From the NCBI GenBank assembly GCA_021372245.1, contig JAJFUV010000174.1, positions 1 to 64,000 on the forward strand: a stretch of DNA of 64,000 nt, given 5' to 3'. The stretch comes from Terriglobales bacterium. GTDB lineage: Bacteria > Acidobacteriota > Terriglobia > Bryobacterales > Bryobacteraceae. Shown piece by piece: positions 26,560 to 34,820 of the stretch. The notes beneath the pieces were generated by a model, which saw only the letters and a program-made list of their open reading frames with translations, ran no database searches and was not told the origin of the DNA. A program made the translations under genes and the position numbers. Each line of letters starts with the position of its first letter. Position 1 is the stretch's first letter.

Positions 26560-27342
26560 TTGAAACACCTCGAATTCTCCTCCCTTCGACGCCGCGTGAG
26601 CGCTGTCAGTTACCTGAATACAGTACCGTTAGTCTGGGGCATGCTGCACGGAGCCCAGAAGGGCCTCTTCGACCTCACGTTCGATATCCCGGCCGATTGC
26701 GCGCGGCGACTGGGGGCAAACGAGGCCGACATCGGTATTGTCCCGGTAGCGGCGCTGGCGGAACTGGGGCTCGACGTACTTCCCGGCGCAGGCATCGCCG
26801 CGTACGGCCCAGTGCGTAGCATCCTACTGATTTCAAAGGTCCCCGTCAAGGAGATCCGGACGCTGTCGCTGGACACGAGTTCCCGCACCAGCGTTAAGCT
26901 GGTCCGCATCATCCTGCGCGACCGCTACGGCGTCACGCCGCGTTGCGTCAGCATGCCGCCGGATCTTCCGGCCATGCTCGCCGAGGCCGACGCCGCGCTG
27001 GTGATCGGCGATCCGGCGCTGCACATCGATCCACGCCAAGCCCCGCACACGGCGCTCGACCTGAGCGAAGAATGGCTCGAAATGACCGGTCTGCCGATGG
27101 TCTTCGCCGTGTGGGCCGGACGGCCGGGAACCGTCACACCCGAGATCGAGCAGGCTTTCCGCGATTCGGCCCGCTTCGGCGTCGAGCACATCGAAGACAT
27201 CGTAGTGTGCGAAAGTGAACCTAGGGGGTTCAGTCAGGAATTCGTGCGCGAGTACTTCGCCCACAACATCATCAATGAGTTGACCGAGCGGGAATATGCG
27301 GGGCTGCGCCGGTTCCTGGAACTTGCCGGGACACTCGAATGA
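26560..27342 (+). CDS. mqnA: Chorismate dehydratase, menaquinone biosynthesis
   Basis: A 260-residue protein of the MqnA family, a periplasmic-binding-protein-like fold that converts chorismate to 3-enolpyruvyl-benzoate, the first step of the futalosine route to menaquinone. Landmarks are VSYLNTVPLVWGML, FDIPADCARRLGANEADIGIVPVAAL, LDTSSRTSVKLVRIIL, DAALVIGDPAL and the C-terminal YAGLRRFLELAG. The open frame starts at a TTG (26560); a GTG at 26596 (giving MSAVSYLNT) is an equal or better start. The stop overlaps the ATG of mqnC by four bases, so the two are translationally coupled. Confidence 0.93.
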   Translation: MKHLEFSSLRRRVSAVSYLNTVPLVWGMLHGAQKGLFDLTFDIPADCARRLGANEADIGIVPVAALAELGLDVLPGAGIAAYGPVRSILLISKVPVKEIRTLSLDTSSRTSVKLVRIILRDRYGVTPRCVSMPPDLPAMLAEADAALVIGDPALHIDPRQAPHTALDLSEEWLEMTGLPMVFAVWAGRPGTVTPEIEQAFRDSARFGVEHIEDIVVCESEPRGFSQEFVREYFAHNIINELTEREYAGLRRFLELAGTLE

Positions 27343-28367
27343 CACGCCAGGAAGCGCTTGACCTGTTTCGAAGCGACGACTTGATCGGAATCGGCATGGC
27401 GGCCGATGCTGTGCGCCGACGCCATCATCCCGAAGGGGTCGCGACTTACATCATCGACCGCAACATCAACTACACGAACTTCTGCACCGAATACTGTACC
27501 TTCTGCGCCTTCTACCGTCCGCTGGGCCATGCCGAAGGCTACGTGCTCCCCAAGGAGACCATCTGGGAAAAGATTCGGGAGACTATCGAACTCGGCGGCA
27601 CCGGCGTGCTCATGCAGGGCGGATTGCACCCGGAACTGAAGATCGAATGGTATGAGGACATGCTGCGGTCGATCAAGGAGCGCTTCCGCATCCACCTGCA
27701 CTGCTTCTCTTCACCGGAGATACTGAACATCGCCGAAGTGAGCGGTCTTTCCCTTCGCGACACCATCGTGCGGTTGCGCGACACCGGACTGGATTCGATC
27801 CCCGGCGGCGGCGCGGAAATCCTGGACGACGAAGTGCGCCAGCGCATCAGCCGCCTGAAGTGCAATACGAAGGAATGGCTGGAGGTTCATCGCGTGGCGC
27901 ATTCGCTCGGCATGCGCACCACAGCCACCATGATGTTCGGGGCCGGCGAGACCATCGAGCACCGCCTGAACCACCTGGACCATATCCGGCGCCTGCAGGA
28001 AGAAACCGGCGGATTCACCGCGTTCATCCCGTGGACGTTCCAGGCGGGAAACACCTCGCTTGGCCGCTCGGTACACGAAGAGGCCACGGCCGTCGAGTAC
28101 CTGAAGACGCTGGCGATTTCGCGGCTCTACCTGGATAACGTCGAGAACATCCAGTGTTCCTGGGTGACGCAGGGACTGAAGACCTGCCAGGTCGGCCTGC
28201 GCTTCGGCGCCAACGACGTGGGCAGCACCATGATCGAGGAGAACGTGGTCTCAGCCGCCGGCGCACACCACTCGGCAGAGGAAGAAGATCTGCGCCGCCT
28301 GATCCGGGACGCGGGCTTCATCCCCAAGCAGCGCGACACGCTGTACCGCTCGCTGTTCTTGAATTAG
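27339..28367 (+). CDS. mqnC: Cyclic dehypoxanthinyl futalosine synthase (radical SAM)
   Basis: A 342-residue radical-SAM enzyme. The cluster motif C-x3-C-x2-C is at Cys49, Cys53 and Cys56 (NFCTEYCTFCAFYR). Other family segments are GGLHPELKIEWYEDMLRSIKERF, LHCFSSPEI, GLDSIPGGGAEIL and TTATMMFGAGET. MqnC cyclises dehypoxanthinyl futalosine. MqnE and MqnC are related; the SIPGGGAEIL block and length favour MqnC. With mqnA it forms a coupled pair; mqnB, mqnD and mqnE are not in the window. The end overlaps the convergent PfkB gene by four bases. Confidence 0.92.
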   Translation: MTRQEALDLFRSDDLIGIGMAADAVRRRHHPEGVATYIIDRNINYTNFCTEYCTFCAFYRPLGHAEGYVLPKETIWEKIRETIELGGTGVLMQGGLHPELKIEWYEDMLRSIKERFRIHLHCFSSPEILNIAEVSGLSLRDTIVRLRDTGLDSIPGGGAEILDDEVRQRISRLKCNTKEWLEVHRVAHSLGMRTTATMMFGAGETIEHRLNHLDHIRRLQEETGGFTAFIPWTFQAGNTSLGRSVHEEATAVEYLKTLAISRLYLDNVENIQCSWVTQGLKTCQVGLRFGANDVGSTMIEENVVSAAGAHHSAEEEDLRRLIRDAGFIPKQRDTLYRSLFLN

Positions 28368-30256: not shown

Positions 30257-31297
30257 TTACAACGCCGGTGCGGTCTCGGCAGCCCGCACCTGCTTCCAGA
30301 TCTCCAGGTAAGGCTTCAGGTCCCGCATCATATCGCGGAATTGCGGGATGGTCAGCGATTGCGCGCCGTCGCTGAAAGCCTTCTCCGGATGCGGATGGAC
30401 TTCGACGATCAGGCCGTCGGCGCCGATGGCCACCGCCGCTCGCGCAAGCGCAGGCACGAGGCTGCGTTTGCCTGTGGCGTGGCTCGGGTCCACCAGAACC
30501 GGCAGGTGGGTCAGTTCGTTCAGCACGGGCACCGCCGCGATGTCGCAGGTGTTCCTGGTTTCGGTCTCGAAGGTCCGGATTCCGCGCTCGCACAGCACCA
30601 CGTTAGGGTTGCCGTTCGCGACGATGTACTCGGCCGACATCAACAGTTCCCTGATGGTCGAGCTCATGCCGCGCTTCAGCACGATGGGCCTGCCGGCGTG
30701 ACCGACCGCCTTGAGAAGCGCGAAGTTCTGCATGTTGCGCGCCCCGATCTGAATGATGTCGGAATACTCGGCGACCACGTCGATGTCGCTGTCCGACATA
30801 AGTTCCGTGACGACAGGCAGGCCGGTGGCCTCCTTGGCCTTGCGAAGCAGTTTGAGGCCCTCCACTTCCAGCCCCTGGAAGTCGTAGGGCGAGGTTCGCG
30901 GCTTGAACGCGCCGCCGCGTAACATCTTGGCGCCGGCGGCAGCCACCGCTTCGGCCGTCTCCATGATCTGCTTTTCGCTCTCCACCGAGCACGGGCCCGC
31001 GATCATCATGAACTCATCGCCCCCGATGACCGAGCCGTTGGCGCGAATCTGCGACTTGTGCGGCCGGAACTCGCGGCTCACGAACTTGTAAGGAGCCGAG
31101 ATGCGAACGGCCTTCTCAACCTGTGACATAGCTTCGAGTGACTCCAGGCACGGGGTAACATCCCCGACACCCACCGCGCCGATCACGACGCGTTCCTCGC
31201 CCTCGATGGAATGGACCTTGTAGCCGAATTCCCGAATCCGGTCGCAGACTTCATCAATTTCGGCCTGTGTGGCGTGCAGACGCATGGAAACGATCAT
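30257..31297 (-). CDS. aroF: 3-deoxy-7-phosphoheptulonate (DAHP) synthase, type I-beta
   Basis: A 346-residue DAHP synthase, the first enzyme of the shikimate route (erythrose 4-phosphate plus phosphoenolpyruvate). Residues about 1-70 form the ferredoxin-like regulatory domain of the AroA(I-beta) type ([33 protein letters not shown]...). The barrel follows with [66 protein letters not shown] and the C-terminal [17 protein letters not shown]. The start at ATG 31297 has a GGGGAAG ribosome site; an earlier frame start lies inside the terminator. Expression is very likely controlled by the attenuator at 31327-31463. Confidence 0.95.
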
Positions 31298-31326: not shown

Positions 31327-31360
31327 TAAACAAAAACCCACTCTTCCGAGTGGGTCGGTC
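31327..31360 (-). terminator. Intrinsic terminator of the aroF attenuator
   Basis: On the minus strand ACCCACTC-GGAA-GAGTGGGT (31355-31336) is an 8-bp perfect stem with a GNRA tetraloop, followed at once by TTTTTG (31336-31331). It lies upstream of the aroF start and downstream of the leader peptide. Bases 31348-31360 can instead pair with 31387-31400, which would destroy this stem. Confidence 0.85.
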
Positions 31361-31386
31361 GGCCTGATTTTTCCTGATGCCCTTTG

Positions 31387-31400
31387 GACCAACGCCACTC
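31387..31400 (-). promoter_or_regulatory. Antiterminator 5' arm of the aroF attenuator
   Basis: The RNA segment GAGUGGCGUUGGUC starts one base after the leader stop codon. It pairs with GACCGACCCACUC (31360-31348) in 13 base pairs with a single bulged C, including one G-U. A ribosome on the stop codon would mask this arm; a ribosome stalled at the aromatic codons upstream would leave it free. Confidence 0.75.
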
Positions 31401-31463
31401 TTAACGAGCAGACGTAAATCGCCAGTAATAAAAGCTAAACGAGCTGGCGATGGCCAAATGCAT
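31401..31463 (-). CDS. aroF attenuator leader peptide (20 residues, Phe/Tyr/Trp-rich)
   Basis: ATG at 31463 to TAA at 31403-31401, 20 codons. The segment FSFYYWRF (codons 9-16) holds three Phe, two Tyr and one Trp, the three end products that normally control DAHP synthase. An 8-bp pairing ATCGCCAG (31451-31444) with CTGGCGAT (31425-31418) encloses these codons and could act as the pause hairpin. The TATAAT at 31477-31472 is only eight bases before the ATG, so translation would begin at or close to the 5' end. The meaning as a leader peptide rests on position, composition and the matched terminator/antiterminator; it has not been tested. Confidence 0.8.
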
Positions 31464-31471
31464 CAAATCCG

Positions 31472-31500
31472 ATTATAGGACGGGGCCGGCGAGGCGCGCA
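31472..31500 (-). promoter_or_regulatory. Promoter of the aroF leader
   Basis: Minus-strand TATAAT at 31477-31472 with TTGCGC 18 bases upstream as a weak -35. The -35 region falls inside a GCCGGCG/CGCCGGC stem (31485-31491 with 31510-31516) just after the TonB-receptor gene end. Confidence 0.55.
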
Positions 31501-31522: not shown

Positions 31523-34500
31523 CTACCAGAGCAGCTTGACCCCGAGTTGGATGTACCGCATCGAGCTGATACCGCCCACCTGGCCGAAGGCACTGCTGCC
31601 GAGCGTGGTATTGAGGTCCGTCCAGTATGGGTGATTGGGCGCGTTGAACGCCTCCACGCGCAGTTGTAACTTCAACCGTTCGTACATCTTGACGTCTTTC
31701 AGGGCGAAAGCGCTCAGGTCGAAGGCGCCTGGACCGCGCAACACCCACTTGCCCGCGTTGCCGTACGTCCAGTCCTTGGGCCGTGCGAAGGCTTCCTTCC
31801 TGAACCAGCGGAACGGAGTCCGTTCGGAACTGTCCAGGCTCCACTCGCCCACTACGTCGGGCCTCGATGCGACCTGGCGCTGAGCGCTGGTGAGGCCGGG
31901 CGCGTAAAGCCTTCCCGTATTCCACGTCCAGATTCCGGAGACGCTCCATCCGCCGAGCACACGACCGATGGGACCGCGCTGGGCCTTGAACCATGGCAGT
32001 TCATATGTATGCAGCAGCACGATGTTCTGACGGCGGCTTTCCTCGAGCTCCGATCTCTCCGAACGGCGGTCCAGCGGATTCTGCATGCCTCCGGCCACAC
32101 CCTCGTTGCCGTAACCGATGATCTTGCCGAACGTGTAAGCCAGGCTGTATGTGAGATCGCCGCTGCGCCGGGTGACGCCAACCTGTAGTGAGTTATAGCT
32201 TGACGTTGCCGACGGTTCGACGATGTTTAGTCCACCCAGGCCGCGGTACGGCAGGAAGGGACGCGTGTCCACGCCCACGTGCGCGGCGGCCTCGGTAGGG
32301 GTCAGGAAGTTCAGCGGACGGCTCATCGAAAGCTGCCGGCCGGTATTGCCGACATAGCTAACATCGAGCGCGGTCTTGAACGGCAACTGACGCTGAATGC
32401 CAAGGCTATAGATGTAAACAGTCGGAATCTTGTAATCGACCGGAAGTGAACCGGCGTCGATGGGGAACCTGGTTGTGTTGGGAATCCCGCCGCTGGGATT
32501 GTCCGCCGTGCCATTCGTGATTGTGGAACTGAGCACCAGCGGCGCCCGGCTGCCGCCGAGATACCAGCCTGAATAGGCGATGCCGGTTACGCCGTGGAAG
32601 ACGCCGCCTCCGCCGCGGACCGCCATCTTGCCGTCGCCGAAGACATCCCAGGCGAAGCTCAGCCGGGGTTGGAAGTTGGTTTTGCGGAGCGGATTGAAGT
32701 ATTTCGGAATGCCGTGGAAAAGCCTGGCGATGTCGGAGTCGCCCGCCACGGCCACACGCCCCTTGGCCGAGTCCGGCCAGCCATCGCCAGGCAGGACCAG
32801 ACCGTTGTAGATGTCGCCGGTGCCCGCGATGATCGATCCGTTCGCCGCCAGTTGCGGGGCCTTGGCCGGATCCCAGAACCGTTGCATGAAGACTACCATG
32901 TTGTTCCACTTGGCCCACCACGGCGAAATGAGCGAATACCGCATGCCGTACTCGATGGTGAATCGCCGGCTCAAGCGCCAACTGTCCTGGATATAGAATT
33001 CGCGGGCATATGCCTTGTAAACGGTCTGCGCGGGGGGGCCGCTTTCGCTGTAGGCATCGAAGTTGCCGAGCAGAGCGTTGGCCCAGGAATTGCCGGAGTT
33101 GCGAGGATTGCTCGAACTGTTGCCGAAACTGAACGAACCGTTGTCGTTGGCGGTGTTGAGTTCGTTCATGTTCATGGCTTCCCAGTAGAAGCCAGCCTTG
33201 AGGCTATGGCTGCCCATGATCCGCGTGAAGTTGTCACGGAAGGTAAATGTGGGCGTCCGGACGTAACTGGGCTGACCCGATCCGCTGATTCCCTGGTAGC
33301 CGGAGATACTCACGTTGGGGATGCGGTCTTCGCGGTTGCCGGGGTAAATCTCGGGGAAAGCGAAGCCGTAGGTCGAACGCTTCACCCCATCCCCGATGAT
33401 GCGGAAGTCCTCGCGGAAGTCGGAGTAACCGAATGTGAATTCATTGACCGTCGTCGGGCTGAAAGTTGTATTGAGCGCCAGGCTGTAATTGTTCCCGCGG
33501 CGATCACGATAGACCTCGAACAGCGGGATGTTGTTGCCCGTATTGTCGAACGGTGAGGTGAAGTCTTGCTGGCCCTTGAGCACCCTGGCCGACAACTGCC
33601 AGTTGGGCTTGATGTTGTAATCGACGCGAACCATCGGGTCGCGGTTCTCAGTGGGCTGGTTGCGGACGGCGTAATAATTGCCGCCGGGGCCGGGCCAGTT
33701 AGGATCGGGATAAATCTTCTGCAACGCCTTGCCAAAGCTGCCGATGCGGCTGGCCGGGATCAGGTTACTGGGGAAAGGCGCCTTGGTATCCGGATCGAGC
33801 GGCTTCACCGCGCTGGCGCTGAAATCGCCGCTTCGTTCGAGTGGCGTGGGCAGGACGGCGGCCTTCGCATTGAAACCGGCCGAGTAGCGAGCCTCCACGC
33901 CCACAAAGAAGAACAACCGGCTCTTGTCGGTGTTCCACTTCCCAGGAATATAGACGGGGCCGCCCAACGTCCCGCCATAGTTGTGGTAGCGTGTGCGCGG
34001 TTTGGTGGTTTGCAGGAACGGCGTAGCTGCGAACTGGTCGGTGACGAAGAACTCATAGAGAGCGCCGTGGAAGTCGCTGGTGCCGCGGCGCGTGATGAAC
34101 ATCAGATGCGCGCCGGTGGTACGGCCGTATTCCGGCGCGTAGTGGCTTGTCTGGATCTTCACTTCCTCGATGAAGTCGACACCGAGGATGTTGTTGACCT
34201 GCACGCCGTCGCGGTTGCGCGTGTTGCTGACTCCGTCCAATGTCATGAAGTTCGTATCTTTTCGCTGGCCGTTGATCTGCAAACCGCCCATCGAATAACT
34301 GCCGCCACGCATATCGGTGGCGAAGTTACCGTAACGGGAAACCACCCCCGGCAGGATACCCAACATGTAGTAGGGATTGCGTCCCGGCAGTGCGTAGTTC
34401 TGCATCTGTGTCGAACTAAGCAGGCGTGAAACCTCCCCGTTGGAGACTTCCACCGGCGGCGCTTCCCCTGTCACCTCAACCCGTTCAGTAACTTGGCCGA

Positions 34501-34810
34501 CCTCCAACTGGAGTCTGAGCGTCAACACCAGATCGACGTCCAGACGGACGTCCGTGCGCGTCAGGGACTTGAAGCCGGTAGCCTCCACGGCGACTTCATA
34601 GACGGCTGCCGGCAGGTTCGGCACCGTGAAGAAACCGGCCGCGTTGGAAGTCGTATCACGCTCCAGGCCGATTGCGACGCCCCTCACTTTCACCTTGGCA
34701 CCGGGAATAACTGAACCGGTAGCGTCGGTAAGTTCGCCGTTGATGGTGCCGCGATACTGCGCCAACAGTGGCAGCGCGGCAAGGATACACACAAGAATTG
34801 GTCGAAACAT
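31523..34810 (-). CDS. Oar-like TonB-dependent outer-membrane receptor
   Basis: A 1095-residue protein with a signal peptide (MFRPILVCILAALPLLAQ). Residues about 20-105 are a carboxypeptidase-regulatory-like domain (YRGTINGELTDATGSVIPGAKVKV...), then a plug domain (VEVSNGEVSRLLSSTQMQNYALPGRNPYYMLGILPGV, GGLQINGQRKDTNFMTLDGV) and a large beta barrel with many aromatic-ended strands. This is the layout of the Oar-like receptors abundant in Acidobacteriota, which import oligosaccharides or other large ligands with TonB energy. No TonB-box was assigned. The start is ATG 34810 rather than GTG 34816, just after a GGGGGTG site. No SusD partner is adjacent. Confidence 0.9.
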   Translation of the reverse strand: MFRPILVCILAALPLLAQYRGTINGELTDATGSVIPGAKVKVRGVAIGLERDTTSNAAGFFTVPNLPAAVYEVAVEATGFKSLTRTDVRLDVDLVLTLRLQLEVGQVTERVEVTGEAPPVEVSNGEVSRLLSSTQMQNYALPGRNPYYMLGILPGVVSRYGNFATDMRGGSYSMGGLQINGQRKDTNFMTLDGVSNTRNRDGVQVNNILGVDFIEEVKIQTSHYAPEYGRTTGAHLMFITRRGTSDFHGALYEFFVTDQFAATPFLQTTKPRTRYHNYGGTLGGPVYIPGKWNTDKSRLFFFVGVEARYSAGFNAKAAVLPTPLERSGDFSASAVKPLDPDTKAPFPSNLIPASRIGSFGKALQKIYPDPNWPGPGGNYYAVRNQPTENRDPMVRVDYNIKPNWQLSARVLKGQQDFTSPFDNTGNNIPLFEVYRDRRGNNYSLALNTTFSPTTVNEFTFGYSDFREDFRIIGDGVKRSTYGFAFPEIYPGNREDRIPNVSISGYQGISGSGQPSYVRTPTFTFRDNFTRIMGSHSLKAGFYWEAMNMNELNTANDNGSFSFGNSSSNPRNSGNSWANALLGNFDAYSESGPPAQTVYKAYAREFYIQDSWRLSRRFTIEYGMRYSLISPWWAKWNNMVVFMQRFWDPAKAPQLAANGSIIAGTGDIYNGLVLPGDGWPDSAKGRVAVAGDSDIARLFHGIPKYFNPLRKTNFQPRLSFAWDVFGDGKMAVRGGGGVFHGVTGIAYSGWYLGGSRAPLVLSSTITNGTADNPSGGIPNTTRFPIDAGSLPVDYKIPTVYIYSLGIQRQLPFKTALDVSYVGNTGRQLSMSRPLNFLTPTEAAAHVGVDTRPFLPYRGLGGLNIVEPSATSSYNSLQVGVTRRSGDLTYSLAYTFGKIIGYGNEGVAGGMQNPLDRRSERSELEESRRQNIVLLHTYELPWFKAQRGPIGRVLGGWSVSGIWTWNTGRLYAPGLTSAQRQVASRPDVVGEWSLDSSERTPFRWFRKEAFARPKDWTYGNAGKWVLRGPGAFDLSAFALKDVKMYERLKLQLRVEAFNAPNHPYWTDLNTTLGSSAFGQVGGISSMRYIQLGVKLLW

Positions 34811-34820
34811 GATCACCCCC

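Follow-up and report, generated by a model that had tools for sequence, protein, structure and literature searches.

The aroF gene of this soil bacterium is, with high confidence, under the control of a classical ribosome-mediated transcription attenuator, an RNA switch that very probably turns aroF on when phenylalanine, tyrosine and tryptophan run short. The window analyzed is the whole stretch of 64,000 nucleotides. Within it aroF lies on the minus strand at 30257–31297 and encodes a 3-deoxy-7-phosphoheptulonate (DAHP) synthase of type I-beta, scoring 492 bits with NF006421 (cut-off 335) and 399 bits with TIGR01361 (cut-off 268), well above both curated cut-offs. The parts of the attenuator (−10 box, leader, antiterminator arm and intrinsic terminator) are found upstream of it on the same strand, between 31477 and 31331. 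On the opposite strand, about 2–5 kb from aroF, are mqnC (27339–28367, TIGR03699 above cut-off) and a gene judged by eye only to be mqnA (26560–27342); these belong to the futalosine route to menaquinone, for which chorismate is the starting compound.

Read along the minus strand, the element begins with the −10 box of a putative leader promoter, TATAAT (31477–31472), that ends 8 nt before the ATG (31463–31461) of a 20-codon open reading frame (31463–31401) with the stop codon TAA (31403–31401). The candidate regulatory codons F9, F11, Y12, Y13, W14 and F16 occupy 31439–31416, and their aromatic positions are kept in relatives. Region 1, CGCCAGCTC (31449–31441), is formed by Ala-Ser-Ser codons and is the partner of region 2, GAGTGGCGTTGGTC (31400–31387), the 5′ arm of the antiterminator with a conserved bulged C. 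Region 2 starts directly 3′ of the stop codon, and not one base after it as had been stated in a preliminary description. Region 3, GACCGACCCACTC (31360–31348), is common to antiterminator and terminator, as indicated by its sequence and covariation, and region 4, GAGTGGG with the U run of the intrinsic terminator (31343–31332), is supported by a terminator scan and by 3:4 pairing in relatives. The terminator reads CCCACTC-GGAA-GAGTGGG (31354–31337) followed by TTTTTG with five T nucleotides, and the scanner reports a 9-pair terminator-like site whose whole hairpin spans 31356–31335. The pairing of region 1 with region 2 completes, in the window, the set of four segments that make up a classical attenuator of the trp type.

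On folding the whole leader we obtained z = −3.9, none of 200 shuffled sequences being as stable. Folding of the RNA that begins just ahead of the leader stop gives the antiterminator as the best structure (−23.3 kcal/mol), and on omission of the first bases of the region 2 arm this changes to the terminator. The preliminary description had reported the TATAAT box, the 20-codon aromatic leader with its UAA stop, the pairing of 31387–31400 with 31348–31360, the GGAA-looped terminator with its U run, and the mutual exclusion of the two structures, and all of these are borne out here by sequence and folding. It had missed region 1, and with it the default terminating state, as well as the probable leaderless start and the conservation of the element throughout the family. 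In many relatives a smaller inner stem pairs the R-F-W codons (CGRTTY) with a segment at or after the stop. This stem is weak in the window, and folding replaces it by a local hairpin within the leader reading frame that is specific to the window (31451–31418), in which ATCGCCAG (31451–31444) pairs with CTGGCGAT (31425–31418).

Of 101 genomes, 97 have a relative of aroF. Nearly all of the close orthologs have a CCCACTC...GAGTGGG terminator shortly before the start codon, and on its 5′ side a short open reading frame in which F, Y and W codons are clustered. An alignment of 39 aroF upstream sequences (A1) was the source of a covariance model, R1. Within the family Bryobacteraceae R1 has matches in 171 of 237 genomes and 58 of 76 genera, nearly always in one copy, with no match in the other 66 genomes. 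In the fetched loci aroF is directly downstream of the match in 89 of 90, the exception being at a contig end. Named carriers are Bryobacterales MAGs, Candidatus Sulfopaludibacter sp. SbA3 and other Acidobacteriota MAGs. One genome (G626) has two aroF copies (L152 and L153), each with an attenuator of its own.

The upstream regions of 20 paralogous DAHP synthase genes from the same family, the one in this genome among them, have no terminator, and none was found before 22 trpE and 24 pheA genes. Of the genes tested, this aroF is thus the only one with the device, as would suit a control at the gateway that watches all three products. The arrangement of leader, antiterminator and terminator is judged to be far beyond chance because it recurs in most of the family and is absent before the 20 paralogs. 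The upstream gene (31523–34816) is on the same strand as aroF, as it should be if the hairpin were an ordinary terminator of that gene and the short reading frame a product of chance, but the retention of the element with aroF across 58 genera and its absence from the paralogous DAHP synthase genes refute this explanation, to which we assign negligible probability.

The preliminary description had read the region as an attenuator of the trp/phe type, and had named conservation of the alternative pairing and of the leader codons among the checks on this. Comparison with relatives supports the reading on both counts. In the 2:3 helix 94.6% of pairs are standard and 6 of the 11 have changed on both sides; sliding the helix by 1–3 columns reduces pairing to 32–46%. 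In the 1:2 helix 86% of cells are paired in the main part, and the 3:4 helix is 97.7% paired in the 39 relatives. In all three helices native arms out-pair arms exchanged among species (0 of 5000 permutations for each helix), although shared ancestry is not removed by this procedure and may contribute. Compensatory changes are seen in each of them. Locus L020 has GAGCGG, CCGCTC and GAGCGGG in regions 2, 3 and 4, where L047 has GGGTGG, CCACCC and GGGTGGG; in both the three regions have changed together and keep all the pairings. Region 1, again made of Ala-Ser-Ser codons, has the consensus ACGCCAgCTCG; with CGAGTGGCGT of region 2 it forms a helix interrupted by a single bulge. The bulged C of the antiterminator and the bulge of the 1:2 helix (A1 columns 91 and 23) are kept in almost every sequence.

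The strong conservation of GAGTGG and CCCACTC at the nucleotide level might suggest instead an RNA that is sensed directly, as a riboswitch, a T-box or the target of an RNA-binding protein, with an incidental reading frame. Arms would also be conserved where a single segment has to pair with two partners, and the aromatic enrichment described below is specific to one frame. A search with the Rfam families, among them the leaders (Trp_leader, Phe_leader and others), gave nothing near threshold in the window and nothing at gathering score in ten other loci, and the T-box riboswitch model had no match in any of these. We regard direct sensing as scarcely credible.

The codons of the leader have the composition expected of a sensor. 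In 118 homologous leaders F, Y and W make up 33.7% of residues in frame, compared with 9.8% and 6.4% in the two other frames; the means are 3.3 Phe, 1.7 Tyr and 1.25 Trp per 19.5 residues. Their placement also fits this role. The leader stop is mostly 1–12 nt before region 2 and the last aromatic codon mostly 14–20 nt before it, and 524 of 528 aromatic codons are at least 13 nt before it. With these distances and an assumed downstream footprint of 12 nt, region 2 would be covered by a ribosome at the stop and left free by one at the regulatory codons. At two Phe positions the substitute is Tyr in 32 cases and Leu, Ile, Val, Ser or Cys in a combined 14, the rows not being independent. Tyr is one of eight one-step non-synonymous routes from Phe, and the bias speaks for selection, at the coding level, of the aromatic class.

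The most conserved stretch of the peptide is R-F-W. This could point to arrest by the nascent peptide in the manner of TnaC, where RFW would stall the ribosome in response to a free aromatic amino acid rather than to uncharged tRNA. Yet the R codons (CGA/CGG) and the F/W codons can be explained by the inner stem, the aromatic residues at neighboring positions vary freely between F, Y and W, the distance from the motif to the stop varies, and many leaders have no RFW. Such arrest is therefore very improbable. The Trp codon, and the R-F-W codons generally, may be held in part by pairing of the RNA in the inner stem, a point that weighs against the main reading as well.

From the parts, their conservation and their covariation, which are directly observed, we infer a mechanism of ribosome stalling as follows. 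RNA polymerase would start at or beside the leader AUG and a ribosome would load on the leaderless end. With ample charged Phe-, Tyr- and Trp-tRNA the ribosome would reach the stop and cover region 2, so that regions 3 and 4 would pair and transcription would terminate. If any one of the three were scarce the ribosome would stall in the F/Y/W run, mostly 14–50 nt before region 2, and would cover or distort region 1. Region 2, being left free, would then join with region 3 ahead of the synthesis of region 4, and transcription would run on into aroF. Where no ribosome has loaded, regions 1 and 2 would pair and termination would be the default.

We have folded the RNA in these states, assuming the same footprint of 12 nt and leaving out the RNA upstream of the ribosome. 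For transcripts ended before region 4 the mean probability of the 2:3 helix is 0.93 with the ribosome stalled on an aromatic codon (0.93 each for F, Y and W), 0.32 with it at the stop and 0.46 without a ribosome. The corresponding values for the window itself are 1.0, 0 and 0.79. A strict criterion, a probability above 0.5 when stalled and below 0.3 at the stop, selects only 42 of 87 leaders. In the complete free RNA the terminator has a probability of 0.94–0.95 and the 1:2 helix one of 0.84. At equilibrium the complete leader favors the terminator in all states (0.77 stalled, 0.99 at the stop, 0.94 free); this calculation was rejected as a test of the switch, since the terminator wins in every state, and the truncated transcripts were used instead. 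The model thus needs the 2:3 helix to form first in time, because equilibrium favors the terminator even with a stalled ribosome. The same dependence on the order of synthesis applies to other attenuators.

That one leader senses all three aromatic amino acids had been put forward in the preliminary description; the composition of the leaders speaks for this, and falls short of proving it. Among 113 distinct peptides 91 contain all three aromatic residues, 14 contain Phe and Tyr, and 8 contain Phe and Trp. Independent draws at family frequencies would give 67.4 ± 5.1 with all three, a null that ignores position preferences, so that a favored Trp position may give part of the excess. The same attenuator could in effect be a sensor of Phe, with Tyr and Trp codons tolerated or kept by RNA pairing. 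Phe is present in 118 of 118 leaders, compared with 107 for Tyr and 102 for Trp, and the TGG at the conserved position can join the inner stem. There is also a precedent in AroR of Corynebacterium glutamicum, for which Phe limitation is described as acting and Tyr limitation as not acting, even though Tyr is in the leader (Neshat 2014, in the account given in PMC11802643). Against a restriction to Phe are the co-occurrence of the three residues above the independent expectation, the lack of a leader at trpE, and the equal probability of antiterminator formation for stalls at each type of codon. Moreover, leaders whose stop abuts region 2 (29 of 35 with Trp) and leaders whose stop is more distant (70 of 78) contain Trp equally often. 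We consider a Phe sensor unlikely, though much the most serious of the alternatives to be weighed against a response to all three amino acids.

The start of the leader has its own pattern. No two-hexamer promoter upstream of the leader in the window passed the scanner, so that only the −10 box is supported, by conservation. Among the relatives' leaders that have a −10-like hexamer it ends 8–10 nt before the ATG in 83 of 105; such a hexamer occurs in 13% of shuffled upstream sequences. Shine-Dalgarno-like words before the leader ATG are at the level of chance (6 of 114; 6.7% when shuffled), whereas before aroF itself they are common (131 of 157). Taking a transcript start about 7 nt after the −10 box, the mRNA would be leaderless or nearly so, and in the window it probably starts within about 0–3 nt of the leader ATG. 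The position of the box and the lack of a Shine-Dalgarno sequence thus indicate that the leader is probably read from leaderless mRNA. We lean, by a small degree, toward a reading in which the leader peptide on its leaderless mRNA acts as an OR gate for the three aromatic amino acids at the entry to the shikimate pathway. It would stand in for individual trp and phe attenuators, and would be the usual means by which one entire family of Acidobacteriota regulates aroF.

Across a sample of the phylum R1 matches 26 of 396 genomes, and most of the distant matches are not at aroF. Because phylum-wide matches are few and the distant ones mostly lie elsewhere, we take R1 to describe an element at the level of the family. 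Matches in family f11 and other distant families were considered as true elements and rejected; they are mostly not before aroF and near threshold, and were treated as chance. The distant matches that do stand before aroF are those of family f27 (L076–L078) and L083. Divergent aromatic leaders are present at aroF in other families of the class and phylum (L039, L054–L064, L077–L078). In L077 and L078, from the distant family f27 of Acidobacteriota, the leader is Trp-rich (WFWWPWHF), possibly a different weighting of the three amino acids. Outside the phylum, an uncultured Clostridia bacterium has MSFYFGFKFFWRGKSCSSKITSVLA and then a terminator before a DAHP synthase gene (L255, 740–1010, no Rfam match), possibly an independent aromatic leader.

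Some orthologs differ from this organization. In L019, L042, L044 and L052 the CCCACTC...GAGTGGG terminator is kept and the leader peptide is lost or degraded (e.g. MQSRANQFGIAP in L042), so these terminators are possible relics of an attenuator. Several orthologs of the same family that are free of the leader peptide (L005, L008, L045, L046, L053 and L055) have the palindrome ACACCA-N6-AGTGGTG, or something near it, upstream. It is exact at aroF in genomes G015, G005 and G011. The palindrome looks like a repressor operator, and a switch from attenuation to repression in orthologs without a leader is possible.

A survey found almost no Acidobacteriota attenuators with assigned functions (PMC2965389), and the present element would give a function to a class of them. 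No paper among those searched describes it, although Lopatovskaya 2010, a broad attenuation survey cited in PMC4833913, could contain it. For the specialist the interest lies in the predicted three-amino-acid specificity and the predicted leaderless start. The element suggests that a single leader, sitting at the shared first enzyme of a branched pathway, can hold codons for each of the end products, while trpE and pheA, the branch genes tested, carry none. More than 100 natural variants offer a good test bed for the way codon choice, stop position and helix strength tune how sensitive attenuation is, and for leaderless translation beyond the Actinobacteria.

In every feature that sequence can test the element belongs to the trp/phe class of attenuators, including a downstream gene, aroF, in the pathway of the amino acids it would sense. 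Like trpL and pheL of Enterobacteria it has regions 1–4 with region 2 near the stop, a coding region 1 and an intrinsic terminator. Each of those leaders senses one amino acid, controls a terminal branch, and has a 5′ UTR with a Shine-Dalgarno sequence, whereas here it is the gateway enzyme that would be controlled. In the ilvGMEDA type a single leader has codons for several of the amino acids that a common pathway produces. The present leader is multivalent in the same way, for aromatic rather than branched-chain amino acids. Leader peptides without a ribosome-binding site also have parallels, in the leaderless trpL, leuL and ilvL of Streptomyces lividans (PMC8079986) and in the ilvB leader of C. 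glutamicum (Morbach 2000, as cited in PMC4046766). In these systems the transcript starts were mapped by experiment, whereas the start here is deduced from the spacing of the −10 box.

The closest precedent is the aroR-aroF attenuator of C. glutamicum, in which a leader with Phe-Tyr-Phe precedes a DAHP synthase gene (Mentz 2013, PMC4046766). Both place a leader of aromatic codons before the gene for this enzyme under ribosome-mediated attenuation, a likeness drawn from the published description rather than from the AroR sequence. They differ in phylum, and in that most of the leaders here contain Trp where aroR has Phe-Tyr-Phe only. Searched loci from other phyla gave R1 no match better than E = 0.03. 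On its sequence, then, the element is a lineage-specific attenuator of a known kind, with an unusual leader for three amino acids.
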